A stretch of DNA of 20,099 bases, taken from Pigoraptor vietnamica. Taxonomy: Eukaryota; Opisthokonta; Filasterea. Positions 1 through 19,652 of this stretch are shown here, piece after piece; the first letter of the stretch is position 1, and each line of letters opens with the position of its first letter. Under the pieces are notes generated by a model. The model saw only the letters and a program-made list of their open reading frames with translations, made no database searches and was not told where the DNA came from. Both the position numbers and the translations under genes were made by a program. The DNA lies in the NCBI GenBank assembly GCA_943704525.1, contig CALSCQ010000572.1, positions 1 through 20,099 on the forward strand, written 5' to 3'.

Positions 1-103
<103 letters not shown>

Positions 104-158
104 CGCATCAGACGTGGGCCCTTGGTCCTTATGTTCGCGCCCTCTCGCGGATTTGCAG

Positions 159-1449: not shown

Positions 1450-1767
1450 CGCACCCGCGTGCATGGGCGTAGGCCCTGTCACCGACCGAGTGACAACAGT
1501 ATTTCAAAAAAAGCCAGCCAGTCCCTGAGTCAATAATGTAACAGCGCTATCACGTGACCAGCAGCTATTGATGGGGTGGAATCTCTTGTACGAGCGCATT
1601 TCACCGTTTGGCTTCGGCTGTGCGCAAGAAACGCTTCCCCACACGGTCTACAAAGCCAGCTGTCACGTGAGAACTGTCTGAAAATGTTCGAAGCGGATAG
1701 ATCCTTTAAGCCCATACAATAGCGAACCCAAACGCCCCGCGCGCAAAGTGCCAGCCGAGTGTGCATC
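1450..1767. other. Convergent intergenic region with two TCACGTGA palindromes
   Basis: This 318-base gap separates the stops of two convergent genes, the Vps54-like gene (+) and the NXPE-like gene (-). I see no coding signal. It should hold both 3' UTRs and poly(A) sites, but no clear AATAAA is present. It contains two copies of the E-box palindrome TCACGTGA, at 1550-1557 and 1663-1670. Their flanks are roughly inverted copies of each other. Confidence 0.6.
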
Positions 1768-4036
1768 TCAAGCGTCCTCTGCTGTGAGAATGTTCAGCAG
1801 CTCATCCACCACTGCCCCTTCGACGTCCAGCTTGAAGTGGCGGTTATCGGGCGCAGCGTCCGGCCGTCCGAGCGACATTTGATAATAGTCCAGCACACGC
1901 ACGGGCTTGTTGTGTCCACGCGCCTCTTCTTCTCCGTTGAATGCGACGATGGCGCTCGCCGCCCTCTCGTTTGCGAACGCGACGCGGTAGGACGTGCGAC
2001 ACCTGTGCGCTTCCGGCAGCAAGCGTTCCGTCCACTGCGTCGTCGCCGTCGAGCGCCACAGAATCGTGGACAGAGGGAAGTCCTCGCGTAAACTCTGCAG
2101 AAACGCCAACACGTACGACTCGTAGTGGGCGTCGAGGTGCGGGTCAGTGGCGTCCGACACGTGGTGTAGTCCTTTGTTCACCAGCAGGATGGGCTCGCGG
2201 CCCGGAGCGAAGAGCCTGTGCATTGCCGCACTACTACTGTCGACCACCTCGACGTGCTCCGGCTGCGAGGGCGCGTCCGTGTCACCCTCCGTCAACGTCC
2301 GGCTTGCGACGTCGGCGACGGCGGTAGCAGACGGTCGCGCAGCGTTCAACGTTGACGTTGGCAGAGGCCCCCAAAAGGCCTTGTGTCCGTCGACGAAACG
2401 GAGGAACGGGTCGAGCGCCCACGAGAAGTAGGGCGGGTGGTCGCGGGATCCGAAGGTCATCCACTGTTGCGTCATCGTGAAATTGAGGTCGGGATACTCG
2501 TGCACCATCCACCACACCGCGTAACGTGCTTGGTACACGCGACCCGTCGCGTCGTCCACCCACACGGTCGCCGTTTCGCTTGCCTGGCAGTCCCTCGAGA
2601 GCACGAGCAGTGGTGCCATTTTCGCCCGATCTCGCCACACGAGCGTCTTTGTGCCGTTCGGGAAGACGACGGGAACGGCGGCGAGGTTTCTGTACACGCA
2701 GAAGCGTTCAAAACGCACTCCCATACTTTGGAGAAGAAGCGCCATGTCGATGTTCAAGTTGCGCGAGAGCGAGTCCCCGATCGAGTGGACCCACTTTCCG
2801 CGCAGGGACGTGAGGGGAAGCACCGGCCGCCGGTCGTCGACGGGGTGCCACACCAAGTCGCTCGTACGGGGCACGCCAGCGTAGCAGCCGCTGCCGACGG
2901 CTTTTCCCCCGCGGCACACGAGCGACTCGTTCTGCCAGCGGCCTTTGAAGTACGAAGCGTCGTTAAATGCGACGCCCGCCCTGTACCAGATACCGCGCGC
3001 GTACGGGGAGGGAATGGCCTTTCCGTCCGTGCCAGCGCTCTGCTGGACCTTCAGCATCCGCCTTCCCACCCGCCCGACGTATTCGAAGACCAATTCGGTG
3101 ACGTTCTGCGACTGACAGCGCGACAGCCCCTGGCATGCGCGGAAATCGAGGCGCCCGCGGACGTCATAATTGCCGGGATCGAACAGCACGACCGACAGCG
3201 CGTACGTCCCATCCAGCAGATCGACGGGGTACCCTTGAAAGACGCTGGGGCCGCGAATGTCCACCTGAAAGCTGTCGCCGCCGCACCGGCGGTCATGGCC
3301 GTTCGCGTCACGCGCGCGTATGAGGACGACGAAGGGCTCGCCTGCCGTGACGACCCATCCGACGTCCTGTTCATCTGCGTGCACGATGCTGTAGACCGAA
3401 CTGAGCGCGTCCGTCTGCCGAGCGGGATCCAGCACGCACGGCGGGGGGTCCTTGCAGTAGTCAAACGCCGCCCGCCACAAGCGCAAGCCGCCGGTTGGAA
3501 GCCGATTCGAAATAGCGTCGCTGAGAGAATTTCCCGGTGTCGGCGCCGTCCGCGGCGGCGCTTCGTCTGCGCATTTCATTGACAGTTGGTATTGAGCATG
3601 TCCGTCGTTCACTCCAGTCGAGATGCAACAGTACCACGGCACTAACGCGCGCATCAACTGAAGACAGTCACGGCACGGCATTCAGGCCCTGGCATACACT
3701 GAGGTGACGGCCCGCCGACGGATCCGCCCGGCGAGGCCATGAACACGCACTGAAGCAACTAAAACAAGACAGCTTACCAATAAATATGGCGGCATTCGCG
3801 GCGCTGCTCGAAGACTGCGCACGGACGGCATCAGCCGAAGTTGCATCCGGCAAATCAGAAGCACTACCGACAGAGACCGATACCGTGCCGTCAGTGACTG
3901 GCGACGAACGAACATATACGAGCAAAACGCCGATTGCCAACAAGCCGACGACGCGAACGGCGCGGGCGACATGGCTGCCACGGAACCCCGTGAGCCATTG
4001 CATCAACGTCGTGTCGGTGCGCGCCGGGTCCGACAT
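1768..4036 (-). CDS. NXPE-like type II membrane protein with E-set and PC-esterase domains
   Basis: Two exons are predicted on the minus strand: 4036-3778 and 3611-1768, joined by a 166-nt intron (GTAAGC donor) with the split codon G|TG in phase, giving 700 aa. Residues about 25-42 form one hydrophobic segment (VVGLLAIGVLLVYV) close to the N-terminus, as in a type II Golgi membrane anchor. Residues about 171-238 look like a filamin/immunoglobulin-like E-set strand domain (GEPFVVLIRARDANG and LLDGTYALSVVLFDPGNYDV). The C-terminal part has the esterase block HSIGDSLSRN at about 363-371 (candidate nucleophile Ser367) and a terminal DNRH at 675-678 that fits the DxxH catalytic motif of PC-esterases. 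This order matches NXPE proteins, and the PC-esterase fold is known for O-acyl transfer onto glycans. The natural substrate is not visible. The start at 4036 is chosen because it supplies the membrane anchor. The exact 3' splice site of exon 2 is the least certain point. Confidence 0.75.
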
Positions 4037-4318
4037 TCACGCCGGCGGTCCCCGGCGGCCACGGCCGCGACCGGCAGCCGGTGGCGCAGCTCAGTCACTG
4101 TGACGGCACTGCACTCAACACGGCGGTGTCAAACGAGTGGCTCAAAGCCGCCCGGTATTAATGCGCCGGCCGTACAAAAAAAACTAAAAAGACTGACACT
4201 GCTGATCGGCGGAAAGCCAGTTACCGCTCAAACCGCGAAGCCTGATTCTCGGCGAGTCGTCACCAAGTCACGACGACTGTCACGGGTTAGACTGATTTGT
4301 TCGAAGCAATTAGACCCC

Positions 4319-4360
4319 ATTTTCGCCACAGCTCAATTTAATGTGCACGGGTGTCAAACA
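4319..4360. repeat. Diverged 40-bp repeat, copy 1
   Basis: A core reading AGCTCAATTTAATGTGCACG and then GGTGTCAAAC recurs near 4673-4714 as AGCTCAATATAATGTGCGCG and then GATGTGAAAC. A weaker third copy of the end (GGTGTCAAACGAG) is at about 4125-4137. A shared GAGTCGTC word lies 80-90 bases before both full copies, suggesting an older duplication of about 350 bases. Origin unknown. Confidence 0.65.
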
Positions 4361-4398
4361 AATGACAGCGTGCACTGCTGCTCGGCCGGCACTCGGCT

Positions 4399-4441
4399 GG
4401 CGGCATCTGATCTTCAGTACCAGTCAGGCTGAAGTGCCGCC
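4399..4441. repeat. Imperfect inverted repeat (hairpin potential)
   Basis: GGCGGCA (4399-4405) pairs with TGCCGCC (4435-4441), and CTTCAG (4412-4417) pairs with CTGAAG (4429-4434). A six-base bulge interrupts the left arm and the loop is 11 bases. It lies just beyond repeat copy 1 in the region upstream of the NXPE-like gene. Confidence 0.5.
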
Positions 4442-4672
4442 TGCGGGCCGGCTCGTAGAAAACTGGCAGCATTCCTCTCGCATATTTCGCTGGCAGTGAT
4501 GTCTGTTCAGCCCCGGGACTGGCAGTGGGTACGGCCCGAAGTGGCCCGGCCGGGGCTGCCGGCGCACCAGTCGTTGCAAGGTTAATCACTGTGGAGAGTC
4601 GTCTGATCGTCCACAAGTAGTCTTGCCAGGCCAAAATGGCAGTGACTGGCTGAGGCACACACCACGCACCAC

Positions 4673-4714
4673 CATTTCGCCCATAGCTCAATATAATGTG
4701 CGCGGATGTGAAAC
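4673..4714. repeat. Diverged 40-bp repeat, copy 2
   Basis: Second copy of the element described at 4319-4360, with only a few substitutions across the core, in the same orientation and about 350 bases away. It lies in the gap between the NXPE-like and palmitoyltransferase genes. It could be a promoter element or a transposon remnant; the sequence does not decide. Confidence 0.65.
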
Positions 4715-4927
4715 GAGCCACGCCCCGGTGATAGGGTGTGGGTTAGGATGCGTTCAAACGATGCGATTGAAGAGGCCGCGAGGTTCTTGTATTCTCTCTT
4801 CTTTCTTGCCTCATCTCCACGTAAACGCAAGCAGCAGCGACAGAAAACAGGCAGACGCAAGGGCAACGAACGAACGACAGCCCCCCGAGCACAAACCCAG
4901 GCGCCGGCATCCACACAGCCCGTCGCA

Positions 4928-7900
4928 TCACACTTCGATCAGCATTTCGAGCGGCGTGAGGGTGGTCGAGAGGCGCATCCAGTCGCCGGGGGGAAGGCAG
5001 CCGAAGAACTCCTTGCAGTTGTCGAGGAACCCGCGGTCGAAGGGGTTGCTGAAGACCTGCTGCATCTTGCCCGTCTCGGGATGGCGCTGGTCCCGCCAAA
5101 AGTAGTCGAGTTTCGTGTAGTACATCATCTCGCTCATGGTCATGTTGCGGCGCAACTGTGTGTGTGTGCGTGTGCGCGCGTGTGTGTGTGTGTGTGAGGG
5201 GGGGAGGGGAGGTGTTGGATCAGCATAACTCTAGACACAATCATCGATTCGTGTGCGAGAGATTAGACGGAAGGAGGAGATTTTGTGGGGAAGAGGGGGG
5301 GGGGGAATACAAGAAGCGAGTGCGCTTGCAACGGGATGGGAGTGCGACAGAAGCCGGAAACTCAACACAGGCATGATTTACATATGCCCAGATATGTGCT
5401 GCCACTCACCAAGACCCACTGCCCGCCGTGAACAAAGAAAATCCACACGAGGACGGCAATGTGGAGCACGCAGAGATAGCCGCCGAGGGGCGATGCCATG
5501 AAGAGCCCGGGGAAAAAGCGGTGGGGCGGATAGAACGGCGGCGAGATGGGGCGCATGGCTGCGCGTACAATGCATGTTAAGAATAAGCGCGAGTTCCACG
5601 CGCCAACGTGAGAGTGCGCGTGGATGCGGGTGCGCGCACAGGAAAGCATTCTGAGAAACAGCCGCAAGATCGACGCCAATTTACCGTTGAAGAGAACCGG
5701 AATGTAGAAGATGTGGACGAGGAGCTCGAGTCCGGACATGAACACAAAGAAGCGGTGGTTCTTTTGGCCGACGCAGCTGAGGAGCCACGGGCTGTGCAAA
5801 CGGAGCGAGAGTGGAGGGAGGTGTAAGCACGTCTGAAACGCACGTCGCGCCCGCGCAGCAGCAGGACAGTTATACAGCGTTCTCCTGCAACGCATTGGAA
5901 CTTACCAGTGGTGGTCGTATCGCTGGACGCAGCGGTTGCACACAAAGCAGTGCTTGGAGCGGATCGGCTGCACGCGACGGAGGGCGTTAATTCGCAGACG
6001 AGCAAACAAACCAGTACATGCGGAAGAAGAAGGGGGGAGGAGGGAGACGGATGGATGGAGAGTGAGAGAGATGGAGAGAGTGAACAGGGAAGGGGGAGGG
6101 GACGCACGCACCCTCGCAATGTTGCAGTAGATGCAGACGGCGTCCATCGAGGGCTCCTTGGCGGCGGGATTGTCGAGTGCGCGCAACATCGACTCCATGA
6201 CATTGCGGGAACCCGTCTGCACAGCAGCGGCAGAGAGGATTGGCATGATGTACGACACACGGACACACGGACACACACACACACACGGCACACGTAAACG
6301 TGGCACTCGCACACTTACCCGCACGGGAAGGAACCCCGGATCGAGTCGCACGAGGTAGACGTACGAGACGACCGTGAGTGGGAACAGAATTTGAAGCACG
6401 AGATGGAAGATGCCGTTCTCGTCGTACGGCACGTACATCAGCCACGTGTAATACGCGTAGAGCGTGAGGAACACGGACGACAGGTAAAAGGCGACGGGAA
6501 GATACTTGTAGCGGACCATTCCCGCGGCCTTGCCGGACGCCATGGTGCCCTGGCGCGGCGTAGTCACCAAGCGGTGCGCAGCCTGCACGCGCGCAAAAGG
6601 TGTGTGTGGGAAGGGAGGGGTAAGTGCTCAGCGATACGCGCGTGTGTGTAGTGTGTCTTACTGACACATTCCATGGGAGCACGTGCAAGTGTATGGTGAA
6701 ATGTTACTGTTGATGGAGAACACACCACACAAGAGCATACGCGCCCGTGGAGCACAGCGAGGTTATGCACGCACCATATTGTTCATGCGGAAGGCGAGGT
6801 CGCCGGGCGTTTCGCCGCGCGTGTCGACCGTGCGCATGCTGGCATTGCACTCCTCCTTCAGGTAACGGAGGCTGTCCAACTGCGACAGCGAGAAAGGGCA
6901 TCTCAGTTAGTTCAGCGAACAAAGGACGCCAAATTCCCAAATTCATGCGCTCGCCCTACGCGCTCGCCCTTCTCCTGCAAACACACAGAGGGAAAGACAC
7001 ACACGCACTCCCACTCACCTTATCGCCCTCGACCGCGCGGTGCATGGGCGTCATCCCCACGTGATCCTTGTGGTTGAAATCGGCACCGAGGTCCCTCAGC
7101 ACCGCAAGCACCTTGACATTGCCAAAGTGCGCAGCCCAGTGGACGGCCGTGCATCCCTTCGAGTCGGCCACATCCACGTGCGCGCCCCCGCGTGCGAGCA
7201 ACAGGACGGCGAAGGCCTGGTTGAACTGCGCGGCGATGATGAGCGGTGTCGCGCCGAGGTTGTCGGTGGCGTTGGGGTCAGCGCCCGCGCCGAGAAGCAT
7301 GCGGCACATGCGAAGGTGGCCCTTGGTGGCCGCCCACATGAGCGGTGTCTGAAGGTTGGCCGCGCGCGCGTCGACCTGAACGGGGAGAAGAGCGAGCAGA
7401 GGTGAGGGAAGAGGGACACGGGGGGGTGACAGGCGCCGCGAAATCGTCGAGGCTGAGTTCGAGTGCAACGCATTGGCTCCTTACGCGCGGGCAAAACGGG
7501 ATCGCGCACACGCAGCTCGAGACTCGAACGCCTCTTACCGACCCATCGCATTCACGATGCACACACACACAGTTCCCCGCATAAAAGGTAGGTACGGAAG
7601 CACGCGTTCAGGGCTGTCTGATCTACGACGACGCACCTCCGCTCCGAGCGAAATCAGCTCACGCGTCGCGTCCAATTGGTTGTTCAGCGCTGTCCAGTGC
7701 AGGGGTGTGCGACCCAGCGAGTCTCTCTCCGCCAGCACAGCGCGATTGGACCGCGCACGCTCCGCGATCACGTCGAACCGGCCCATGCCAATCAAGTCCG
7801 AAGTGGTGGCGTCTGCTCGCGTAGATGTCCGTGAGACATGACAGAACCACAATGAAGGAGGCGCACGAGCAGTCTCGAACGACGACAAACAAACAAACAA

Positions 7901-8258
7901 CTGGCAAAACATAGGCGCGATCGATGTCCGCGCCGCAAGAGGAACCAAGTTCTACGCCACATGAACACACGCACACATGCGCACACGCACGAACGTAGCA
8001 GGCATAGTAGGTACACGCACAGTCCGCCGCGCATTCTAAAAATCACCCACCGCCCAGCTTTGTCGGATCGATCGACGCGGGCGATTCCTTTTCGGAGCCC
8101 GGCTGAACCATAATGGAAGTGTGGGCGGGGGCGGAAAAACTCGGTTCACGAGGCCCACCAAGTCCTCCCGCTTGGCCGTTCGAGGACGACGGTGATGGAC
8201 CGCCGTGCCCGTGGCCATGGCACGGCGCGCCCCCGTGCGAGTGCGAGTGAGAAAACAT
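4928..8258 (-). CDS. Ankyrin-repeat DHHC protein S-acyltransferase
   Basis: Ten exons are predicted on the minus strand: 8258-8051, 7812-7637, 7375-7019, 6879-6775, 6582-6319, 6216-6112, 5967-5906, 5791-5685, 5558-5410 and 5155-4928. All are in phase and give 586 aa. The N-terminus is His/Gly-rich. Six ankyrin repeats follow at about 71-282 (SLGRTPLHWT, NLGATPLIIAA, SKGCTAVHWAA). Two membrane helices lie at about 309-332 and 341-361, then DPGF, then the zinc-binding cysteine-rich domain at about 398-442 (C-x2-C-x9-HC-x2-C-x2-C-x4-DHHC-x5-C). The catalytic DHHC is at 423-426, its Cys codon split by an intron (TG|C). Two further helices lie at about 440-460 and 488-507. Enzymes of this type transfer palmitate to substrate cysteines, with ankyrin repeats recruiting substrates. 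Domain order matches HIP14/ZDHHC17 and Akr1, but only four membrane helices are seen. The TTxE motif reads TMSE. An in-frame ATG at 8309 is an alternative start. Confidence 0.88.
5157..5198. repeat. TG/CA microsatellite forming a 3' splice site
   Basis: A TG-rich run with some CG steps sits at the 3' end of the last intron (5409-5156) of the palmitoyltransferase gene. On the coding strand it is a CA run whose final CACAG is the predicted acceptor before exon 10. The same intron holds an 11-base G run at 5295-5305. Confidence 0.8.
6259..6300. repeat. Imperfect CA-rich run in an intron
   Basis: An imperfect ACAC-rich run lies within the 6318-6217 intron of the palmitoyltransferase gene. It is noncoding and resembles the other GT/CA tracts found in introns of this window. 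Confidence 0.75.
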
Positions 8259-8674
8259 TGCGCGAGAGCGTCCCGATGAGGACGCGAAGGGATGCAGAAG
8301 TTGGCACACGAGGGGAAGGGGGGATCGCGTGCGTTGTGTGACAAATATTGAAAGAGATGCGAGCCAAAACAGGCCTTCGCCGTCTGCGTCGTCTGCGTCG
8401 CGACTGTGTGTGGCTGCAACCGCACTTTCCGCGCCGCATGTCCGTTACTGTATTGTTACTGTAGTGTTACTACTGTTACACCTTCACTCTTTACCGAAAA
8501 CGAGTTTCGGGCGTGGCGCTTGTAACTTGTAGCTAGGCGACGACCAGTACGTGCTCCGCGTGTGCGCAGGGTACTTACTGGTGTGTGGTAATGCAACCAG
8601 ATTCCACCCAAAACACAGGGTAAGATTGAAAAGGCGAACAGTCCTCATTGAGGTCGACATCGGCACTACATTCT
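8259..8674. other. Intergenic region between the holocytochrome c synthase and palmitoyltransferase genes
   Basis: These 416 bases lie between two minus-strand genes: the stop of the holocytochrome c synthase gene (8675) and the chosen start of the palmitoyltransferase (8258). No exon was found apart from a possible short N-terminal extension to 8309. At about 8440-8481 there are four loosely spaced TGTTACT-like words (GTTACTGT, GTTACTGTAG, GTTACTACTG, TTACACC), a degenerate short repeat in the likely promoter of the palmitoyltransferase. Confidence 0.5.
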
Positions 8675-9559
8675 TCACGCGGACGGCGCCTCCTTGCTAT
8701 CCGTCGAGAGCATTTCACGCACGGCCATGCGAAAGCGGTCAATGACGCCCGGAATGGACACGGCGGGCCGACAATCGATGTGGAAGCCAAGAGGTCGATC
8801 GGGTGTCCCGCGCGCTTGGTAGAAATCAATCACGTAGGTCACCTCTGTGCCACAGCGGTCAACTACCCAGTCGTGTCGATCGAAGGGAAGGGTGTAGCTG
8901 CAACACGAGTCGGACGTTAGAAGAGAAGGGCAATGGAAAGGTAAAAGTTCGGTCACCAGTTACTAGGGTCAAGCGAGTGGGTTTTGCGCTCACCCCATCA
9001 AATTCCGCAAGCGCGCCTTTGGGCTGAAGTCCTTCGGTCTTCCGCGAAATTTCAATAGCTTTGGAGTTGTGCAGGTGCTGCGAAACCATGAGGCCAAGTC
9101 AGCAATGGGCGAGACAAACCGCAGTGCGAGCAGAAGAGTTCGGGCACTTTCTCACCTTTCGTGCATCTTCTCCCATTTCAACACCTCCATCCAGGCGCGT
9201 TCGTTGACGGCGTTGTGTATCGACACGACTGTGGACATGTCGTCCTCGTTCGGATTCCACGCCTTTCTTCGCATGGCGTTGTAGAACATCTGCTCCGACG
9301 GGAACACCCATTTCTCATCGGGACCCGCCGCCCCCTTCGGAATGCTCGACGTCACGCGTTCCGTCGGCAACGAGTAACGCTGTCCTGGCGCGGGCCGCTG
9401 GTTCGGCGGCGGCATGTTGTTCCGTGGATCGAGCGCCTCTGCTGCGCCATTCCCCGCAGTGCACCCTCCCGCCATCGCCCCACCGCGCGCTTCGTGCGGG
9501 ACGGGACAACCGCCCGACAGCGGGTGCTCCTCCGCCTTCGGAGCTTCTGCAGCCCCCAT
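8675..9559 (-). CDS. HCCS: Holocytochrome c synthase (cytochrome c haem lyase)
   Basis: Three exons are predicted on the minus strand: 9559-9156, 9077-8994 and 8897-8675. Both junctions keep phase (AG|C and GG|C codons), giving 236 aa against about 270 in animals. The enzyme works in the mitochondrial intermembrane space, attaching haem to the CXXCH motif of apocytochrome c (System III). The N-terminus carries one CP motif (GGCPV, Cys18), a haem-regulatory type motif. The core contains [20 protein letters not shown], where His115 matches the known haem-ligand histidine. Then follow [20 protein letters not shown] and [20 protein letters not shown], a hallmark block of the family. The ATG at 9559 is the first in frame after the divergent intergenic region. 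I am confident because the second exon only makes family sense in the phase dictated by the splice sites. Confidence 0.95.
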
Positions 9560-9570
9560 TTTCACCAAAA

Positions 9571-9600
9571 GAGAGAGAGAGAGTGTGTGTGTGTGTGTGT
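9571..9600. repeat. (GA)n(GT)n microsatellite
   Basis: A GA run passes directly into a GT run ending at 9600, a few bases upstream of the holocytochrome c synthase start codon and therefore within its probable 5' UTR or core promoter. Confidence 0.9.
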
Positions 9601-9669
9601 TGTGAGCGCGAATGTTTTGCTGGAAAAAGAGCCCCTCAAAGTTTCAGGTTGGCAGCTTGGGGGGCTGAG

Positions 9670-9688
9670 CACGTGAGTTTATCACGTG
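9670..9688. promoter_or_regulatory. Paired CACGTG E-boxes
   Basis: CACGTG occurs at 9670-9675 and again at 9683-9688, 13 bases apart, about one helical turn. The second is part of the palindrome TCACGTGA. The position is about 110 bases upstream of the holocytochrome c synthase start. In other eukaryotes such sites bind bHLH-zipper factors. CACGTG is fairly common elsewhere in the window, so function is only suggested. Confidence 0.45.
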
Positions 9689-9928
9689 ATAGTGTAACAA
9701 TGCGTAACAAGCGGAACATGCGAGTGCCTGCGCGAACGTGCGAGAAAGTGGTGACACTGCTATCGAAAAATAAAGGCCGTTCAGTGTGGAAAATGTATGA
9801 AATTGTGATCTCGAAATAAATATTTGCTCCACTTTTGGTGACTGAAGCACCAAACACACACACTGAGGCACACACACACACACACACACAATCGCGCCCC
9901 GATTCCCCCTTCCTTGTTTGTGCGAGCG

Positions 9929-9935
9929 TATAAAA
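9929..9935 (+). promoter_or_regulatory. TATA box of the BAG gene
   Basis: A perfect TATAAAA lies 156 bases before the BAG start codon. It predicts a transcription start near 9960 and a 5' UTR of about 130 bases. It is the clearest TATA box in the window in a promoter position. Confidence 0.6.
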
Positions 9936-10090
9936 GACGCAACGCTCTTCTCTCTATCACAACCCCACAAAACTTCAAAGTCTCTTACAGGGCTTTTCTT
10001 CAAGTTGATGCGATTGACCCGCCGCTAGAGTAACAGTCGCGACTGTCAGTCCGACCGAGCGTGACGCAACAGGCAGCACCGATCCAGAAA

Positions 10091-12250
10091 ATGTTCGGCG
10101 GGATGGCTTTCGACCCCTTTGCGGCGCCCTTTTCGACGCCCATGTACGCGGCCCCACAAGTGCGACGACCGGTGCGTCAACCGCCTCGTGAGCAGTACGT
10201 CGTCGTTGAGGATGAGTACGGTCGGCCAGTGCGTGTGCCGCTCTCGGCACTCCGTGCTGCGCAAGCTCGCCAGGCCGCACCGCGTTCGGCATACTACGAC
10301 CACTACGACCCTCGCTACGAGCCTGTGCGGCGGCCGGTTGAGCGGTTCGTCCATGATGACGACGAGGATGAGGACGCCGACGTTGACCCTCGCTACGCGC
10401 GCGCCGCCGAGATGAAGCGGCGGGCGCTCGAGGCGCAGCGGCTGCGCGAGTTGGAACAGCAGCGGTTGGTTGAGCTGGAGGAGGAGCGGAGACGGCGCGA
10501 GATTGAGGAGCAGCGACGCCGTGTCGAGGAGCAGCGCCGGCAGCAGGAACTTCGCGCGCAGGAGCAGCTTCGGCGGCAACTCGAGCACCAGTGGCACGTG
10601 CCTCACGGTCACGGCCATGCGCACGGGCACTCGCAAGCGCACGCGCAAGCGGCACCGAACGTCGTCCCCGTTGCGGTGCGTCACGGCGGCCCCGTGTCGA
10701 TCCCGATCGTCTCGAAGAACGCGGAGCACGCCGCAGAGGCCGAGCGCAAGAAGGCGGAGGCCGAAAGGCGCGCCTTTGAGAAGAAGGTCAGCGGATTGCG
10801 CAACCTCGTCGCCGCGCGCAAGATTCAGCGGTGGTTCCGGAAGCTTCGCGCTCGGCGGGCCGCAGAGACGATCGTGCGCGCCATCCGTCGTCACACGGCG
10901 GTGACTGCGGCTCGTCGCGCGCTGAACAGCCTCCGCAAGCTGCGCGACATCGAGGAGCGGGCGCGGTCCATCACGTCCGAGTACGTCGAGTCGATTCCCG
11001 CGGCACGCAATGCCGTCGCTGCCGCCGAGCGCGCTGGCGACGCGGCGACCGTGGAGGAGGCGCGCAAGGCCCGCGACCGTCTCGTGCGTGCACACAACGA
11101 GCGCCTGCTCCAACTACTCCTCAAGATTGACGAGCTGTCGACGGCGGGCTCGGACTACGTGCGCGAGCGGCGGAAGGCGGCGGTGAACGCCATCGAGGCG
11201 TCCATTCGGGACGCGGAGAAGGCGCCGCAGTTGCAAGTGCAGCCGGCTGCGGAGGAGGCGCCTGTCACTGCCGACGACGCGGATGCCGCCGCCCCCGTCG
11301 CCATGGAGTGCGAGCAGGAAGCGCCTCAGGTGGTTGACGAGCACGCTGGTGGCGATGTCGAGATGGCCGAAGTTGGAACGAATGTGGAGGAGGAGACGTC
11401 TGCGAGCGACGAACAGGCGCTTGTGGGCGAGGAAGGCGCGCATGGTGACGATGCGGGCGATGCCTCCCCGACGGCGATGGTTGTCGACGAGACCCCGGCG
11501 GTGCCATCGCAGGTCGGTGCCCCGTTCGAAGACGCGTCTTCGGACAGCCCAACCCCAGGGAGTTGTGGCCAACACGCTACGCTTGAACGCGCAGAGGCCC
11601 CGCTTTGCTACGATGCGGACGGCAGCCGTAGCGCCGCGCAGGCACCGAAGGACGAGGCGCCGGCGGACGTCGGTATCGTCGCCGACGTCGACGCTCACGG
11701 CGACGACGGCGTGGACCGTGCGGCCGATTCACAGGACTCGTGCGGACACGCTGTGACGGCGCCCGATGTTGTCATGACGGAAGAAGCACAAACGCCAAGT
11801 GAATCGGTCGATCGTGTTGGAGATGTGAAGGAGCAGCTGAGCGAGGCTATGGACGGCGTGGCAAACGTGCAGGAGCCCGGCGAAGTCGACTTTGGCGCTG
11901 CGGCTGCGGAATCGGTCGTCGACGGACACTCTGAGGACTCGTGGGAACAAGTGAGCAACACGTCGAGCGACGGGCGGGGCGAATGTGCGTGCGCGGTTGC
12001 TCGCGCGGAATTTTCGGAGAGGGGGGTCGAGGCGGAGCCGCGAGAGCCCCCTCCTGACGAAACGACCGCTCTGCTTGCCCGCGACGTCCCGAACGAAACG
12101 ACCCCTCTTTTCAGCGACGTCCATAACGAAACGACGCCCAGTATTGCCGACGACGGTTCAGGCGCCGGGTGTGCTGAAGGCGAGGCAAAGACTTGCGTCG
12201 ACGGCGATGGCGTTGCTGCGACTGATGGTCTCTTTGCGGCGGAGCAATGA
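10091..12250 (+). CDS. BAG-domain protein with IQ motif (Hsp70 cochaperone-like)
   Basis: A single uninterrupted reading frame of 719 aa. The ATG at 10091 is the first in frame; the frame is open further upstream only from a GTG. Residues 1-105 are Pro/Tyr/Arg-rich with an acidic patch (about 89-99). Residues 105-168 form a highly charged coiled coil of Glu/Arg/Gln. A His-rich stretch follows (HVPHGHGHAHGHSQAHAQ, 169-186), then an IQ calmodulin-binding type motif (KIQRWFRKLRARRA, 244-257). A BAG-like three-helix domain spans about 275-375 and includes the conserved-type face VRAHNERLLQLLLKIDEL. BAG domains bind the Hsp70 ATPase domain and promote nucleotide exchange, and IQ plus BAG is a combination known from plant BAG proteins. 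The remaining 340 residues are acidic and low in complexity, ending with three spaced ETT repeats (656-685). It is intronless, in contrast to the neighbouring genes. Confidence 0.82.
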   Translation: MFGGMAFDPFAAPFSTPMYAAPQVRRPVRQPPREQYVVVEDEYGRPVRVPLSALRAAQARQAAPRSAYYDHYDPRYEPVRRPVERFVHDDDEDEDADVDPRYARAAEMKRRALEAQRLRELEQQRLVELEEERRRREIEEQRRRVEEQRRQQELRAQEQLRRQLEHQWHVPHGHGHAHGHSQAHAQAAPNVVPVAVRHGGPVSIPIVSKNAEHAAEAERKKAEAERRAFEKKVSGLRNLVAARKIQRWFRKLRARRAAETIVRAIRRHTAVTAARRALNSLRKLRDIEERARSITSEYVESIPAARNAVAAAERAGDAATVEEARKARDRLVRAHNERLLQLLLKIDELSTAGSDYVRERRKAAVNAIEASIRDAEKAPQLQVQPAAEEAPVTADDADAAAPVAMECEQEAPQVVDEHAGGDVEMAEVGTNVEEETSASDEQALVGEEGAHGDDAGDASPTAMVVDETPAVPSQVGAPFEDASSDSPTPGSCGQHATLERAEAPLCYDADGSRSAAQAPKDEAPADVGIVADVDAHGDDGVDRAADSQDSCGHAVTAPDVVMTEEAQTPSESVDRVGDVKEQLSEAMDGVANVQEPGEVDFGAAAAESVVDGHSEDSWEQVSNTSSDGRGECACAVARAEFSERGVEAEPREPPPDETTALLARDVPNETTPLFSDVHNETTPSIADDGSGAGCAEGEAKTCVDGDGVAATDGLFAAEQ
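12056..12145 (+). repeat. Coding repeat: three spaced ETT-x-L type motifs in the BAG protein
   Basis: Residues 656-685 contain DETTALL, NETTPLF and NETTPSI at 12-13 residue spacing, and the DNA repeats GAAACGACC-like words in step. The first fits the [DE]xxxL[LI] acidic dileucine sorting pattern. That role is speculative, since nothing else suggests a membrane protein. Confidence 0.65.
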
Positions 12251-12727
12251 GTTGTTGCGAGTGCGTTGCGCGTTGCCTGCGTTTGCGTCCGGTTGCGTGC
12301 GCGTGCGCGTGCGTCGCGGCTGCCTGTAAATAGCGGCAAAAATACGCCTATAAGAAATGTATATTTTTATGAACTGGAATTCACCGACTTGAATTGGCCG
12401 CTACAAAGCACAAATCATTCAGAAAGACTCGACGTAAAGCAACCTGCCCAGTGCAAAAGAGCGACTTGAGTTGTGGCGCGCCATATCGCTTGGTCGCACG
12501 TAATCAATATGGTACTGTACCTTAGTAAGGGAAGGAGGCGTGACTGAGTCGCAGACACTCTCAACACGACATGACGAGGGCACATTTTCTTCGTAACAGC
12601 TGTCGTACGCTTGCCTCAGCGCTTGCATGCATCAGCCTTGTTAATGCATGCCGCATGAGCTTCTTGGGCGTCGACGTGTACCTAACCGCTGTCGAAGGGG
12701 TTCAGTTGGACACAGAATGGGCAGCTG
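12251..12727. other. Intergenic region downstream of the BAG gene
   Basis: About 480 bases between the BAG stop and the stop of the small minus-strand frame at 12728. It begins with a GC-rich stretch of GTTGCG/TGCGCG words, then becomes AT-richer near 12340-12380, the probable BAG 3' end. Short frames occur on both strands but none has splice or family support. Confidence 0.5.
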
Positions 12728-12949
12728 TTACGAATTTTGCACGACAGACTGTCTCACTGGCACTGGCACTGAACGGGGATCCACCTGCAACAAACCACGC
12801 TCACCCTTCGCGCACGTGTGAAATCCACTCGCATCTTTCATGGCACAAAAGTACGGGTCGCGCATGCACTCGCAAGCGGCGCAGGCGACCGAGGGTCCGT
12901 CCGCTATGCCGAGGGACAACTTCACTTGCCACCCGATACGCCCATACAT
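12728..12949 (-). CDS. Small paralogue or fragment carrying the C-x2-C-x17-H-x-C module
   Basis: An ATG-started frame of 73 aa on the minus strand. Its middle aligns without gaps to the module in the large MYND gene (12949-12728 against 14287-14158). Both show C-x2-C, then P-x-F, then G-x-H-x-C and GE, with about 10 identities in 30 columns. The tail after the module probably reads through an intron: a GTGAGC donor follows the AKG codon, in the same phase as GTGAAT in the paralogue. No MYND exon is found downstream. A TATATA-like sequence (13006-13012) lies 57 bases upstream of the ATG, so expression as a small gene is possible. I favour a truncated copy of the neighbouring gene. The function of the module is unknown; its Cys/His spacing suggests zinc binding. 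Confidence 0.45.
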   Translation of the reverse strand: MYGRIGWQVKLSLGIADGPSVACAACECMRDPYFCAMKDASGFHTCAKGERGLLQVDPRSVPVPVRQSVVQNS

Positions 12950-13445
12950 GGCAAACTCGTGAGTGATGTGCGCAAATGTGCACACAACGGCGCGAGAGAG
13001 CGTACTATATATGGCACATGGGAGGGCGATATTATAATTCATTTGCAGAGACATGGGAGAGCACACAAAATGCACCATAGGGCAAAGGGAAAGTTGCGCC
13101 CACAACGATACGGACGATCCACTTGACATCTCCAGTTGACGCAATGCCGCCATGTCTCGAACACGGCAGGCGAACGCTCGGTGCAAGAAAGACACTGCAC
13201 AAACTGCCAAGGAAAAGCGAAAGGTGCAAAGATGAGACGAACTTCTCTTAAGTGGATCCCGCGCTTAAAACACGGTTGAGGGACACGTCGTCGTCCACCT
13301 TTCACCATAAATGGGGACGCGCTGTCTGGACAGGAGTGGGTCGGACGATTAACAGAATTCACGGCCATTTACACATCGACACATGGGTCAGTTTGAAATT
13401 TCCGGCATTGCCTTCAACGCAAGTGCATAAGTTTATCGCCGGCGC
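12950..13445. other. Region between the MYND gene end and the small paralogue
   Basis: About 500 bases without a convincing exon. The part next to 13446 should be the 3' UTR of the MYND gene. It shows patchy similarity to the sequence just beyond the second MYND finger (about 18930-18985), indicating that the duplicated unit extended past the stop codon. A TATATA-like word lies at 13006-13012. Confidence 0.5.
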
Positions 13446-16400
13446 TCATCGCCGCCCTGCGCACGCTTGGCGGTGCTGCGGCCACGCGGCCTTTTGGCAC
13501 TCGCGGGAACAGTAGCGCACCACGAGACACCCGCCGCACTTGAGCAGCTTGACGTCGCCCTTCCCACAGGCCGCGCACGCGCGCGAAACGGCGGCCTCGG
13601 CGCGCACTGGGGTGCCCTTGTTGCTGAACTGCGGGGCCGGCTCGGCAGACGGCGGAAGAGAGAGAGGGGGGGAAGTAGGCGCATTGTTCTCGGCGACCGA
13701 CGTCCGCGTGTTCACAGCCCCCATTACACCCGCTTGGCCTGTTTTCCACGAAACCCCTGTCGTTAGAACAGTGTCGCGCGTATCCGCCCGTACCGCCGCC
13801 TGTGTTCGCGCATGTTGGGGGGCGTCCATTGAGGGCGCCGGCGCAAGCGCAGCGGACGTGGAAGAGGGCGCACGCTGTTTCTCCCGCCCGGGTGTTTCTT
13901 GACTCGCCCTGCCATCACGGACACGCGTGCCCGTTCCTGCATTGCCAGCCATTGTAGCACGTCAAGAAGGGCACGAGAACCCAGACAAAAAGCCACTATG
14001 AAAGAGCCCCTCCTTCACATCACGCCACAATTTATGATATGGGCGATGCCGGCCCGCAGAATTCGTGCGAAGCCCGACTTGAAATGACGGAGGGCCACTG
14101 GGAGTACAAAATTTGGTCCCAATCACACTGACATGCGACTGAAAGAGAAATATTCACCGTTCTCGCACAGATGGGATCCAGCGCTTTCATCGTAGTCGGC
14201 GAAGAACGGGTGGTACTTGACCTGGCACACGGGGCACACGACCTTCGGGCGTGCGGCAAGTTCAGCCGGAGAGAGAAAAGAAATGCCCTGCACACAGACG
14301 GCGCCGTTAAGCCAACGAACAGCACGGCCTGTCATCCTCTTAATGAAAAACTAAATACCATGCACAAAGCGAGGTGCTGTGAGCAGACGAACAGCACAGG
14401 GTGGTCATACTCTCAACGCAAGCCGACAGTTGCTCAACATAATGGAAATAGACACAGCAGAGTCATGCGGCACTCACTCACCAGCTGGCGCAGGTGCGTC
14501 TCAGGGTCATTCTGCTGTTCGCTCGACATCAAGTCTGTGATGTTCATTCCCGTCGCCTTCCACACGCACACGGCAACGTATTCGCCCTGAAAATTATGCT
14601 GTTAGAGCGGAAGTACCATGCGTCTGTTCTCAATAACTATAGACATGTACAACTGCTGTGGACGCAAAGGTACCAACCGCCGACGCCTTGAGCATGCGCA
14701 TTGCAGTTCCGATCACCGCGAAGGTGCAGGGGTGCTCCCGCAGCGGCGCAACCGCAGCGACAACGGCCGCCATCGTCACGCGCTTCAACCAGACGGCATG
14801 GGCGAGAAAATCGGCGGCGTCGTCGCACACGTGCTCGTCGGGCGGTGGGGTGCAGCTCAGCAGCAGCTTAATTCTGCACGTGTAACACGTGGTGTTGGAA
14901 CTGGTAAGAAAGACGAACTCAGAGATCGTCCACTGCGTCAGAAATGGCAGTAATCGAAGTATAGGAAACACATAGGGGACAGACGAGACATGACGTTAGG
15001 CTCACTGCGGAAACACGCTGGTTCTGGGGAAAAGCACTGCGGTATACGTAACACACAGTTCACGATTCGAGATGCACGTTTGTCACGGCAACGGCCATAG
15101 ACACGCACCCGCCCACAATGCACTCGGCAGACAAGAAATTGGATCCCAATAAAGGTCCTGTCGTGAGGAACCCCCGCTTCCATATGTGTACCGCGCCGAA
15201 GATGCAAAACACGAGGAGCACGTCGCGGGTCGACTTGTCCCTCCCGTCGACCAGCCATTCCAACGTCGCGACCGAGCCGAAGTCCAGAAACGCCTCGACA
15301 GCGTACAAGGCCGCGCCATACCAACTGCGATCTTCCACTACCGGTACTCCCAACGCACAATCGCACCTGACGCCGAATCTCGAACGCGTCAGTTCAAAAA
15401 CAGCACGCGATCCTCCCTCCTTCGCCGCGACGGGCATGGGTGCACCCAGCACGCAACGTCCCCTCTCAAGTTCATCGATGCCCCGCAGCCACTCGAGCAC
15501 AAACCGCACGTCGTGCACCCACTCACTCGCAGAGCCCCACGTCCGCAGCGCATCGACGAGCCCCCGTTCGCAAGCGGCAAGGCCAACGAAGTAATCCTCA
15601 TCAAGGGGCACCCTGTTGAACACGTGACCAAAGGACGAGGCCACACGCACAATCCATCGCACCGGCTGTTGGTCGGCACGTTCACTGCCAAACGTACGCG
15701 CGAGATGACGCAACAACAGCGTCACGAGTGCCTGACAGTCCTTAAAGTCCACTCTAACATTCAGAGGCGGGGAAAGTTCGCACGTGCGCGCGAGTAGGCA
15801 CAGAAGAGTAGAGACATCCAAATCCGCCCGTTGATCCGGACAGGCACTGCCGACAGATATGCGAAGAAGTATCCTCATGAGCGTTATCGCCGTTTTAGCG
15901 GCAATGCGCACCGAGAAAATCGCATCGAAAGCGCGGGTGCGGCGCGTGTCGTCGAGGATACACTGCACCAGCCGCGCGTACGCCACTCCATCTGCGTCGT
16001 CCACAATCGAAATGGCCAAGGTCGCGACAAGAGGGTCCAAGCGGCCGTCGGTCACGCGAGTGAGATCCAGTGCGTCGACGCGCCCGCGCTTGTACTGCTC
16101 GAGAACGGCCTGCAAAGCGAGAGACCACAATCGCTCCCATTCGAAACTTTTCACGGTGTCAGCATCCACCTCACGTGAGAGAACAGTCTTCAACGCGGCC
16201 CAAAGAATCGACTCGGCGTGCTCCGTCAGCCCCCCTCGCGCGCTGTGGCCGCCGACGCCATCAACATCGCAGCGCGCGCGGACAACGGAGGGATCGCCCT
16301 CGTGTGCGTCGCAGCAAAATGCGTCACTCTCCGCCCGCTGCAGAATAACGTACAACTCCATGCAGTCAAGCACCAACATGAGATCGCTGTGGTTCGCAAG

Positions 16401-17294
16401 CCGCCCAATCCGATCGCCCACAACGCCATCGAGTGCGTGTCGAATTCGTTCCAATTTCACAACTTCGCGAATGTAGTTCTGGCCCTCGACGGACAAAAAG
16501 GGCCCATTGGCGAGGAGGTTCAAGGCACAACGCGTGTGCATCGCGGAATACCTGGCAAAGTTCGAGCGATAGAGATGGACGAATGGAACACAAGCAAATA
16601 TCGCGCGGTCCATATCGAGCGCCTTGCCTGGCGTCGGCGTCTCTCCCGTGCCCCCCACCGCCGCATAGAGCGACGCCTCGAGCGCCTTGTTCGCGCGCAG
16701 CATGTCGAGCACGGGCTGCGGGCACAGCTCTCGGAATTGGCAGAGACCGAAGGCGAGGAGCAAAGTCGTTGCCTCGCGGTGCCAGCCTGAACCATCGTCC
16801 TCAGCGGTCTCTACAAAGACGCGAGCAAGTTCGACCCACACGCGCTTCCACGCATTCGTGTCGACGACGAGACCGTTGAGCTCTCCTTCAGAGCCGCGAT
16901 TGCAAATTTCAGTTGAAAAGAGGCCGGCAACCTTCCAGGCGTTGCAGACGCGCTGCGACGCCTGGAGGGGGGGGGGGGGGGGGGGGGGGGGGGTGTCAGT
17001 GGGGCGTGAATAACAGGGCATGTTGTACGTGCTCATCCGCTCAGGTATCGTGGTCCGTGGAGCAGCATATGAAACGAGACAACGCACCGCCGCATCGCGA
17101 GAAGCCAGCGCGCGCCCCGCTTCTCCCTTGCTCAGTATCTGTTCGCACGCCACTGCGAGCGACACGCGCACGCCCTCGAGCAACGCGGCCGTTCCCCGTG
17201 CGTTCGCCATGGCCATCAAGTCGACGTCGTATTCCGGAAACATTCTCAAAAACTCGCGCACGGCGGGGCTGCACACCACAGACGACATTTGCAT
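13446..17294 (-). CDS. Large uncharacterised protein with C-terminal MYND zinc finger
   Basis: Six exons are predicted on the minus strand: 17294-17088, 16961-15192, 14932-14678, 14586-14482, 14287-14158 and 13936-13446. All are in phase and give 985 aa. Residues 1-780 are unrecognised and mostly helical. A candidate metal module C797-x2-C800-x17-H818-x-C820 follows, then a Ser/Ala/Pro-rich linker. A complete MYND finger closes the protein (C943, C946, C956, C959, C965, C969, H977, C981), five residues from its end. MYND fingers bind zinc and usually mediate protein-protein contacts through proline-rich peptides. Intron 1 is supported by the fragment at 18300-18823, which has a splice site at the same codon. 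The fifth intron's phase-1 donor recurs in the copy at 12728-12949. Junctions 15191/14933 and 14677/14587 use weaker donors. An alternative is two or three separate genes: 17294-15060, 14932-14123 and 13952-13446 are each open. Confidence 0.58.
13464..13580 (-). other. MYND zinc finger coding segment
   Basis: Encodes all eight zinc ligands in the order C-x2-C-x9-C-x2-C-x5-C-x3-C-x7-H-x3-C, including RYCSRECQKAAWPQH, the most typical stretch of the family. The same segment is repeated with high nucleotide similarity at about 19001-19120, which shows the two are recent paralogues. Confidence 0.92.
16967..16993. repeat. G27 homopolymer forming a splice pyrimidine tract
   Basis: Twenty-seven consecutive G on the plus strand. 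On the coding (minus) strand this is C27 followed by TCCAG, the predicted 3' splice site of intron 1 (17087-16962) of the MYND gene. If left unspliced it would be read as polyproline. The paralogous fragment has only a normal short tract, CGTCCCCTCAG, at the same splice site. Confidence 0.93.
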
Positions 17295-18299
17295 TCAACG
17301 CACAGCAGACGGTGCGCAAGGGGTCAACGCCGGGTGGAGAGGAGTGCGACAGACAGCCTCGTGCCTAGTAATAAAGTGTTATTGACCGTAAAACAAAGGT
17401 ACTATACTTGAAGTACGCCTGCAGTTGGTGCCTGTGCTGGCGCACTTCTGACGTCAGACAGCCTACCCAAATACAAATTTGCCCCCAAGGGAATTCCGCC
17501 GGCCGAAGACTTCAGCCCCAAATTGTGCGTCGCCCACTTCGGAACTCCTCGCTGTCGCGTCGCAGTTCTCTCTCTCTTTCTCTCTGAGCGCCGCGTCTCA
17601 CTCAGTCGCCGCTCTCCTTCTCTCTCACTTCGCCGCAGCGCGTACTGTTGTGTCGGCAGCTGCCGGCTGCTTCGTACAGCAGTTTACTTGTTCCGCAACC
17701 TGAACGCTTATCACCTTAACAAACTGAGCTTTTGTCGCAACTCTGTCTCGCGATTGAGATCTGTCGAGTCGCTCGCTTCCACTCGGAGCGATCCAGATCA
17801 CTCGCTACGACTAGCGGCGAAATCTCGGCTGATTAGGAGACGTTCATCCTCCGGACGCCATCTCCTTACAGAGAGTGTGTCTGGACGATAGTCTGCATGT
17901 CCATCACCGCAGCCGTTCCGGGCCGGCCGAGACGGCGCATGGGGTCGTCGGTGCGTTACATTGAATTCTCATTACTCGCTCCATGTTCAGTAACTGTTTG
18001 AGCACTGCAACTTGAGACGGCTGAGAATGAGGCGGAAAGAGTCAAGACTGGCGTCTCGAGCGGCGCAATCACTGCGTCCACTATCAGTAATGGTCAACTG
18101 GCCCTAGCCGGCAGACGCCGGCGCCGGCAATGTCGCTGCCGGCCGTCCAAAAAAATGTCGCCAAACCCAACGGAAACCCCTGCTGAGCACCACAGACAGC
18201 GCTGGCAACGTCGGGGTTGGGCTCCTGGCACACGGGATAGCGGCACCCGGATTGCACCCGTCCGGCGTCTTTAGTAACCCGACGCGCGCTTGGGTGACT
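17295..18299. other. Upstream region of the MYND gene
   Basis: About 1,000 bases with no supported exon. It should contain the promoter of the minus-strand MYND gene. A perfect CRE-like palindrome TGACGTCA is at 17449-17456, about 155 bases before the start codon. A CT-rich stretch spans about 17565-17630. Near 18100-18160 are several GCCGGC words. A GCCGGCCGTCCAAAAAAA word at about 18137-18154 resembles GCCGGCCGTACAAAAAAA near 4166-4183, a possible trace of a dispersed repeat. Confidence 0.5.
17449..17456. promoter_or_regulatory. CRE-like palindrome TGACGTCA
   Basis: A perfect eight-base cAMP-response-element type palindrome, extended to CTGACGTCAG (17448-17457), about 155 bases upstream of the MYND gene start. 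bZIP factors bind such sites in many eukaryotes. Function here is inferred from position and motif alone. Confidence 0.4.
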
Positions 18300-18823
18300 G
18301 CCGCCATGGTTGTGCTCTGGAGGATGTGGTTCGGGGTCGCATCATTCTGATAGCCTGCATCGTCATCAGCGGTCTCTACAGTGAGTGACGCGAGCCACAG
18401 TTCGACGGACCCACACGCGCTTCCACGCATCTCCATCGACGACGAGGCCAGCGACGGTGCGTCGGCAGACCTCGTGCGCGAGATCAATAGCGTCCGCCCA
18501 AGAGTCATCGACGCGTTGCGCCGCCTGAGGGGACGATGCATGTTGTCCGAGCAAGCGCCATGGAGATCGAAGCGCAACTGACACTGAGACCGGCCACATC
18601 CACCTGAATGCAATGACGACGGAACCCACCCCGGCATCCTTGAGTAAACCCAACACTGTCCGCTGCGGCTCTCCCTCGCGCAGAATCTGTTCGCACCTCA
18701 CAGTTGGAGCGACGCGTAGAGGGCATCGACTACGAAATTCGTGTCAGAATGACGGACGCGCGACACAGCGTCCTCGTCGGTGAATATTTCCAAGAAGTTG
18801 CACACGCCGGCGCTGCACGCCAT
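18300..18823 (-). pseudogene. Frameshifted 5' fragment of the MYND-gene family
   Basis: On the minus strand this repeats the start of the 13446-17294 gene in pieces that lie in different frames. MACSAGVCNFLEIF matches VVCSPAVREFLRMF. CEQILREGE matches CEQILSKGE. After an intron, AAQRVDDSW matches ASQRVCNAW, VVDGDAWKRVWV matches VVDTNAWKRVWV, and VETADDD matches VETAEDD. A stop and small insertion near 18696-18720 and further indels near 18375-18420 break the frame. The intron (GTGGGT donor, CCCCTCAG acceptor) is kept at the same place and phase as in the intact gene. Similarity fades below about 18300, so only the first fifth of the gene is present. It is a decayed, truncated duplicate; no restored protein is implied. 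Confidence 0.8.
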
Positions 18824-18985
18824 TGCCGACCTCACCACTGCGTGCGCACACGCGCTTGATGTGGTGCAGCAACGGGCATCGCCCTCTGAATGTGCATCAC
18901 GGGCATCGCCCTTATGGCACACTGACTGTTAAACACTTTGCAACCAAATTTCCCGCGCTTTTTTCAATGGCTTTACCGCCAAATC
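18824..18985. other. Gap between the MYND remnant and the 5' fragment
   Basis: A short noncoding gap with a GGGCATCGCCCT-type word repeated at about 18874-18883 and 18900-18911. The part next to 18986 resembles the sequence beyond the stop of the intact MYND gene. Confidence 0.5.
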
Positions 18986-19323
18986 TCATTGCTGCCCTGC
19001 GCACGTCTTGCGGTGCTGCGGCCACGCGGCCTTCTGGCACTCGCGAGAACAGTAGCGCACCACGCGACACCCTGCACACTTTGGCATCTTGAAGCTGCCA
19101 TTCCCACACGCCGCGCACGTGCGCTTCGGTGCAACAGATGATGCCGGCGGGACATCGGTTTGACAGCGCCCACTGTTCGGGGCGTTCTCGACGTTCGCGG
19201 AAGACACAGTGGGCGCGCCTTGCGTGGGCGCATCTCGCTGACGTGCGATGCCTTGTATCGCAAAGAACAGAGAGCCGTCAAGTCGGCGAATTTCGTTCCC
19301 AGCATTCAAGCCGTGGACTCCAA
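18986..19323 (-). pseudogene. Second MYND finger: 3' exon remnant of a paralogue
   Basis: A minus-strand exon-like frame ending in an intact MYND finger (ligands C-x2-C-x9-C-x2-C-x5-C-x3-C-x7-H-x3-C) and CAGQQ before the stop, nearly the same end as the intact gene's CAGRR. There is no ATG in this frame before the finger. A predicted acceptor (GGGTCAG, exon from 19323) has the same phase 1 as the last exon of the intact gene. It is therefore a terminal exon whose 5' partners are missing or degraded: only a damaged module lies upstream (19572-19652), and beyond that a different gene. The finger itself shows no damage, so a short expressed product cannot be excluded. The N-terminal linker is poorly conserved relative to the intact copy. 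Confidence 0.62.
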
Positions 19324-19360
19324 CTGACCCAGAATTATGCACACGCGCGATACGTCTGCG

Positions 19361-19570
19361 GCGTGCACCTATGGACGCGACAACGTAGCATATGTGCCAA
19401 ATCTCCACGACAGAACAGCAAACAGACCCGGCGTGCACCTATGGACGCGACAACGTAGCATATGTGCCAAATCTCCACGACAGAACAGCAAACAGACCCG
19501 GCGTGCACCTATGGACGCGACAACGTAGCATATGTGCCAAATCTCCACGACAGAACAGCAAACAGACCCA
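19361..19570. repeat. Three tandem 70-bp repeats
   Basis: Units 19361-19430, 19431-19500 and 19501-19570 are identical except for the last base of the third. Each begins GCGTGCACCTATGGACGCGA and ends AACAGACCC plus G or A. The unit length is not a multiple of three, so it is not a protein repeat in one frame. The array falls in the intron-like gap between the damaged module and the second MYND finger. The lack of divergence indicates recent expansion. Confidence 0.97.
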
Positions 19571-19571
19571 G

Positions 19572-19652
19572 TCCTTTTGCGCATGTGTGCCATGCGAAGG
19601 CGACGCGGGCGGCGGTCGAATGGCGGCTGATCATCAGCGCGCACTGGTACAT
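19572..19652 (-). pseudogene. Damaged copy of the C-x2-C-x17-H-x-C module
   Basis: Minus-strand codons from an ATG at 19652 give a frame in which one Cys (19643-19641) is followed by exactly 17 residues and then HTCAKG. The copy at 12728-12949 has the same ending (HTCAKG) and spacing. The first Cys of the CxxC pair is absent, apparently through loss of about three codons after a shared GP. It precedes the second MYND finger in transcription order, just as the module precedes MYND in the intact gene. Confidence 0.5.

Follow-up and report, generated by a model that had tools for sequence, protein, structure and literature searches.

In this study, we analysed a 20,099-bp stretch of DNA from Pigoraptor vietnamica (the window), which is an entire contig (C224) of a 32.5-Mb assembly of 1,395 contigs, GC 59%. 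It carries one member of a multicopy gene family, in which a predicted alpha-solenoid exon is followed by a C-terminal MYND finger. The sequences directly display the structure of this gene, arrays with open and broken members, turnover of loci, a finger that is homogenised across contigs, and a contrast of rates between the finger and the solenoid exon. We consider it slightly more probable than not that the proteins function as adaptors, in which a constant docking finger is combined with a variable recognition solenoid, and that the family evolves by birth-and-death.

The gene in the window lies on the minus strand at 17294-13446, and was modelled using its paralogues as a guide. The model contains six exons encoding 993 aa, and all five introns have GT-AG ends. 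The first-pass annotation, made from the letters alone, had placed an apparently complete gene of 985 aa at 13446-17294; the gene and its coordinates were retained, and its length was corrected. The parts of the gene are as follows.

17088..17294, minus strand: exon 1a, with the donor GTGCGT, the start codon at 17294 or 17288, and the intron at aa 69 in phase 0
16962..17087, minus strand: intron 1, with a long C tract (G on the plus strand) as its polypyrimidine tract
15109..16961, minus strand: exon 1b, about 617 codons, predicted variable alpha-solenoid (13 open paralogues aligned; AlphaFold models)
14678..14873, minus strand: exon 2, from tblastn matches to paralogues and splice sites
14482..14586, minus strand: exon 3, 35 codons, relatively conserved
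14158..14287, minus strand: exon 4, with the conserved motif C-x2-C-x4-H-P ... H-x-C
13446..13936, minus strand: exon 5, in which a low-complexity linker precedes the C-terminal MYND finger and the stop codon; the acceptor is kept in the four closest genes
13461..13577, minus strand: MYND finger (PF01753), aa 951-989; the homogenised DNA block (about 13443-13586) has this finger as its core

The poly-G/C run near 16969-16991 was considered as a polyproline stretch, since the long open frame in the window reads through intron 1. This was ruled out, because intron 1 of C686e, a paralogue on contig C686, contains stops, and in 9 of 15 loci the length of intron 1 is not divisible by three. The G tract is therefore intronic. 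When the whole 993-aa protein was searched against Pfam, zf-MYND (PF01753) was found with 50.3 bits, against a cut-off of 22.7, and only MYND models matched at E up to 1; no SET domain was found.

The protein sequence of exon 1b is only 35-41% identical between the window gene and the other subfamilies, and an alignment of the 13 open members contains 43 invariant columns. None of the 13 showed a match in Pfam at E up to 0.1, and a profile of the exon found no match among the sequences of the Protein Data Bank (PDB). AlphaFold2 models of two members, which are 38% identical to each other, were all-helical over the first ~500 residues. Their mean predicted local distance difference test values were 71.2 and 71.3, their predicted template modelling scores were 0.67 and 0.69, and the loops and C-terminal parts were of low confidence. 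The structures most similar to the models were many tied ARM/HEAT-type proteins (importins, Ric-8A, CAND1, beta-catenin) with none standing out, and among viral structure models the best match reached only E 0.12. From these models, exon 1b can be read as a distinct solenoid that resembles the ARM/HEAT type. The order of a solenoid exon followed by a MYND exon recurs across the modelled loci, which places the alpha-solenoid predicted by the two AlphaFold models and the MYND finger in one protein. The motif of exon 4 fits exactly in 9 of the 11 exons 4 from members with an open exon 1b; in the exceptions, the first H is one residue earlier (C686b) or the sequence departs from the motif (C686a). 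This motif is a possible second zinc-binding site, perhaps an undescribed knuckle. The Cys and His residues that serve as zinc ligands are present in all 12 fingers of members with an open exon 1b, the finger of C407 lying beyond the contig end, and a remnant finger in C954a is without the last Cys.

To describe the family across the genome, searches were performed using three protein seeds, namely the first-exon protein of the window gene, exon 1b of C546 and exon 1b of C686a. All three retrieved the identical set of 15 contigs. A genome-wide count of the family had been proposed in the first-pass annotation, and it came to 21 gene-sized loci on these 15 contigs, with short fragments besides. 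Contig C686 has a head-to-tail array of five genes (23.8-44.3 kb) and a remnant, C921 and C954 have two gene-sized loci each, and single ones are found on C224, C1157, C407, C387, C769, C546, C819, C54, C473, C53, C992 and C1392. Exon 1b, of ~600 codons, is open throughout in 13 of the 21 loci and interrupted in the other 8 in this assembly, and part of the interruptions may be assembly errors. Allowing small shifts, the introns at aa 69 (phase 0), aa 687 (phase 2), aa 752 (phase 0) and aa 787 (phase 0) were recovered in 16, 18, 16 and 13 of 23 modelled loci, respectively, and the linker intron at aa 831 in only 7, in a region where the alignment is weak. Five of the 23 spliced models (C224, C686e, C954b, C387 and C921b) span exon 1a to the finger with neither frameshift nor stop, that of C686e with a doubtful 48-nt linker intron and those of C387 and C921b with extra short introns. 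The models of C1157 and C407 are also free of frameshifts and stops, but cut by contig ends. The spliced models of C686f and C1392 were rejected as spurious, and in divergent members, weak alignment may account for the frameshifts and stops of exons 4-5.

A genome scan gave 56 MYND matches. The family finger is shared at the DNA level by 22 places, with 78-100% identity, and 21 of these are among the 56 matches. At four further MYND loci (C944, C374, C582 and C15), no DNA match to the family finger was found, and within 1.5 kb around each, similarity to the family was limited to the finger or its immediate neighbourhood (33-54% protein identity). On C992, a family-type finger (C992:5143-5271, L025) and the exon-1b piece next to it are on different strands, and this is perhaps a rearranged locus. 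In the first-pass annotation, it was suggested that the family may be lineage-specific. Scans of IMG/VR, with the single protein and with the alignment, and of GTDB genomes, with the alignment, found no relative, by a method that needs short conserved peptides and could miss distant ones. Elsewhere in the assembly, a 75-aa C-terminal fragment of actin has one residue that differs from the listed cytoplasmic actins, and a search for 5.8S, which also gave signals in 9 of 14 control genomes, returned nothing.

The gene in the window is flanked by three remnants of the family. To compare them with chance, the best tblastn bits of each stretch against 19 family proteins were set against the maximum that it reached when shuffled 100 times under a first-order Markov model. 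The stretches of 12.4-13.4, 17.3-19.0 and 18.9-20.1 kb gave 39.7, 65.5 and 177 bits, against maxima of 29.6, 28.5 and 32.3, respectively. Window positions 1-12400, used for comparison, gave three matches (E 2e-4 to 2e-3), each of which hit the low-complexity linker region. The remnants are listed below.

About 12797..12940, minus strand: exon-4-like remnant, closest to the C546/C53 subfamily
18384..18829, minus strand: decayed 5' piece of C954a/C686b type, covering exon 1a and the beginning of exon 1b
18989..19630, minus strand: 3' piece of a C686b-type gene; it takes in linker/exon-4 sequence and a MYND finger (18989-19117), and the DNA alignment reaches to about 19630
19359..19569, no strand assigned: 70-bp tandem unit in three identical copies, inside the decayed 3' piece

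These results agree with a local array of one intact gene and three family pieces in the same orientation, as previously described from the letters: a module copy at 12728-12949, a frameshifted 5' piece at 18300-18823, now seen in two frames (18829-18701 and 18719-18384), and a module with a MYND remnant at 18986-19652. The pieces had been taken as relatives of the intact gene. They do belong to its family, but each is closest to another subfamily. The 3' piece has 80% DNA identity to C686b over 460 aligned columns, and all three 70-bp units align to one single stretch of C686b. In the direction of transcription, the order is the C686b-type 3' end, the frameshifted C954a/C686b-type 5' end, the intact gene, and the C546/C53-like exon-4 remnant. 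The first two are about 160 bp apart, a layout of 3' end to next 5' end that is that of a head-to-tail array. From the gene models, neighbours elsewhere are separated by 157-278 bp in 4 of 6 pairs, and by 648 bp (C686d-e) and 868 bp (C954a-b) in the others. Judged by similarity, the remnants in the window are thus members of other subfamilies, and they follow each other as a head-to-tail array would predict. The segment 12621-13234, which contains the exon-4-like remnant, is 72% identical over 662 columns to C686:48460-49103, which lies behind C686e, the member nearest to the intact gene (64% identity). Therefore, C224 and C686 seem to share an array segment, in which about 0.2 kb in C224 corresponds to 4.1 kb in C686. 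The proposal of birth-and-death in a tandem family is supported by these sequence comparisons well beyond the window, where arrays and open and broken loci recur, but it needs the amendment that the parts of the gene evolve unlike one another, since the MYND block is homogenised across the core loci.

This block is about 130 bp long with sharp edges, and its mean identity between contigs is 92% over eleven core loci (nine genes, which were used for the silent-site pairs, plus C921a and C473). In 43 core pairs, ungapped identity was 0.30 at positions -20 to -10, 0.56 at -10 to 0 and 0.93 at 0 to 10; at the 3' edge it was 0.43 at 130 to 140 and 0.23-0.32 beyond +140. Inside the block, it was nearly equal within contigs (0.937, 10 pairs) and between contigs (0.917, 33 pairs). 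For the 29 core pairs from different subfamilies, silent differences were about 0.5-0.6 in exon 1b, which is near saturation, versus 0.06-0.34 in the finger. Same-codon identity was calculated from degenerate codons with the same residue, and each finger was compared with its own exon 1b (Fisher p<0.05). It was 86% in the finger versus 56% in exon 1b for these 29 pairs, 28 of which were significant singly. Between the core and three outer members (C387, C769 and C546), the values were 66% and 55% (significant in 2 of 27 pairs). Core pairs belonging to one subfamily gave 87% and 76% (1 of 7), and outer-outer pairs 63% and 70% (0 of 3). As a control for codon usage, codons were shuffled 300 times among equal residues within each gene. 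The core fingers, at 0.863, exceeded both the median (0.62) and the maximum (0.654) of the shuffles. We infer that the MYND block has been homogenised by interlocus gene conversion as the best reading of these sequences, because the excess persists under the codon-usage control, and comparisons with the three outer members show little or none of it. Exon 3, with an intermediate silent identity of 0.68, is not claimed as part of the converted block, and a comparison of the MYND and exon 1b trees was left unused since the nodes were weakly supported.

On the other hand, part of the raw silent identity in the finger is composition, because the shuffles alone reached 0.62 in the finger, as compared with 0.39 in exon 1b. 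Calculated by hand as a share of the possible range, the excess over chance was about 0.64 in core fingers, 0.29 in exon 1b and 0.21 between core and outer fingers. The effect of composition agrees with strong purifying selection on the finger, down to the level of codons, while the rest of the gene drifts. The finger is short and structurally constrained, and its GC content at third codon positions is 0.85-0.90 in the core versus 0.74-0.79 in the outer genes, a difference that would also fit GC-biased conversion, as weak evidence. We regard such selection without conversion as improbable, since the three outer members retain the finger and yet their silent differences from the core are almost as great there as in exon 1b, and since no shuffle reached the core identity. 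We are similarly doubtful that the MYND DNA is a small copied cassette, by which 3' ends were replaced recently through duplication or unequal crossing-over instead of continuing conversion. Partial copies of the block do exist in the spacer between C686d and C686e (C686:about 39900-39965 and 40117-40190, L010/L011) and at C921:5155-5269, and one more copy is in C681. However, the block stands at the end of exon 5 in the modelled genes, and its flanks have no match between subfamilies, so that no whole 3' end moved with it.

The selection on exon 1b was analysed by two approaches. In five close pairs, chosen among open members, about 8-12.5 stops were expected under stop-blind mutation and 0 were seen; simulations free of stops numbered 0, 0, 0, 0 and 1 of 500. 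A custom-written site-class test (M1a vs M2a, F3x4) was applied to the four closest solenoids (C224, C686e, C954b and C1157). With the full set of 594 codons, twice the log-likelihood difference (2dlnL) was 44.0, and 18% of the codons were assigned omega 3.0. It was 17.4 without codons within 8 columns of gaps (404 codons), and 10.4 without those within 15 columns (277 codons). Two alternative topologies gave 41.6 and 42.1 for the full set, and 17.7 and 16.2, then 10.8 and 9.1, for the trimmed sets. In null simulations without positive selection, which covered the full and first trimmed sets (40 each), the largest values were 7.28 (594 codons) and 4.36 (404 codons). Conflicting splits along exon 1b showed no clustering (p 0.22), and recombination within the exon is therefore not evident. 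The four solenoids thus show a signal of diversifying selection at the codon level. Site tests in groups of two or three genes were dropped because the estimates ran to extremes.

Several points stand against this signal. Four sequences are few, alignment error may contribute to it, and the differences in exon 1b are nearly even over the codon positions (138/116/151 for C224 vs C686e). The last point, together with the 8 interrupted loci and an average omega of 0.46-0.65 in three groups, would be expected if the family were relaxed and mostly dying, and the high omega meant lost constraint. We think this unlikely: 13 loci have remained open over 600 codons with none of the about 8-12 expected stops, splice sites recur, 43 columns are invariant in 13 sequences, and 2dlnL exceeds the null simulations.

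Both the architecture and the expansion appear to be of an already known kind by analogy, because similar ones are reported in Chlorophyta, in relatives of Chlamydomonas and in a diatom. In Chlorophyta, species-specific clusters of paralogues encode predicted alpha-solenoid proteins with a MYND-type finger, which are candidates for organelle factors, and in C. reinhardtii, seven solenoid genes with no Pfam domain form a tandem array apart from these clusters (PMC13126933). As described there, these families resemble the present one in combining an alpha-solenoid with MYND in species-specific multicopy families; they differ in being organelle-factor candidates, and the passages on them mention neither finger homogenisation nor selection. 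It is nevertheless very unlikely, in our estimate, that the present proteins are organelle RNA-binding solenoid factors like those candidates. The resemblance speaks for this reading (PMC13126933); against it, the N-termini from exon 1a, examined by eye only and thus weak as evidence, have no evident presequence. MYND-associated expansions are also reported in relatives of Chlamydomonas (PMC8226300). In the unicellular diatom Fragilariopsis cylindrus, many MYND genes are reported, several with unknown accompanying domains (PMC8991070). The accompanying domains are various in that report, whereas in the present family, one DNA block is common to 22 finger copies and one architecture to the modelled genes. 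Among titles, abstract openings and a few passages of the literature, from which this is judged, no report was met of homogenisation limited to a finger beside a diversifying solenoid.

The MYND fingers of SMYD proteins are reported to bind short peptides, PXLXP (PMC9755447). The finger of the present family is of the same kind, with SmyD1 as the closest PDB sequence (E 4e-8), but unlike the SMYD methyltransferases, the window protein has no SET domain according to Pfam. ZMYND10, by its description, likewise has a C-terminal MYND finger after a long part without a catalytic domain (PMC5895051, PMC9755447), and this finger is needed to bind and stabilise DNAI1 (PMC5895051). It is a protein of 440 aa, as compared with about 990 aa in this multicopy family. 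As a point against a docking function, the MYND finger of ZMYND10 alone did not pull partners down (PMC5895051).

In the adaptor explanation, about twenty genes would encode proteins in which an ARM/HEAT-like alpha-solenoid of ~600 residues is joined by a linker, which may hold a second zinc site, to a MYND finger at the C-terminus. The finger may dock a common partner, by analogy with MYND fingers that can bind short proline-containing peptides, and the solenoid may bind varied targets. Selection would favour new target specificities while the one docking partner is kept. Conversion would keep the finger and diversifying selection would vary the solenoid, so that newly formed copies could bring further specificities to a single pathway. 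New genes would be born by duplication of array segments, and would die by truncation and frameshift, as seen in the window. A more specific proposal, to which we give only a small chance, is an intracellular recognition repertoire, in which solenoid receptors diversify, conversion keeps the docking finger near-identical across loci, and each new receptor plugs into the same effector pathway; the family might in this way be linked to defence. The family is a compact example from nature: a single 130-bp domain seems to undergo concerted evolution across contigs, and the remainder of each gene diversifies. It is a testable model of how a repertoire can retain one output as its inputs change, and could shed light on other unexplained MYND expansions.

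In the rest of the window, an Rfam scan of the whole stretch gave no match. An open frame of 729 aa with a BAG domain (30.5 bits) was found at 10061-12250 on the plus strand, and an ankyrin-repeat frame at about 5902-7468 on the minus strand, together with an exon like that of DHHC palmitoyltransferases, of which the DHHC match was just under the cut-off. A long TG/CA microsatellite occupies the contig end at 1-110.

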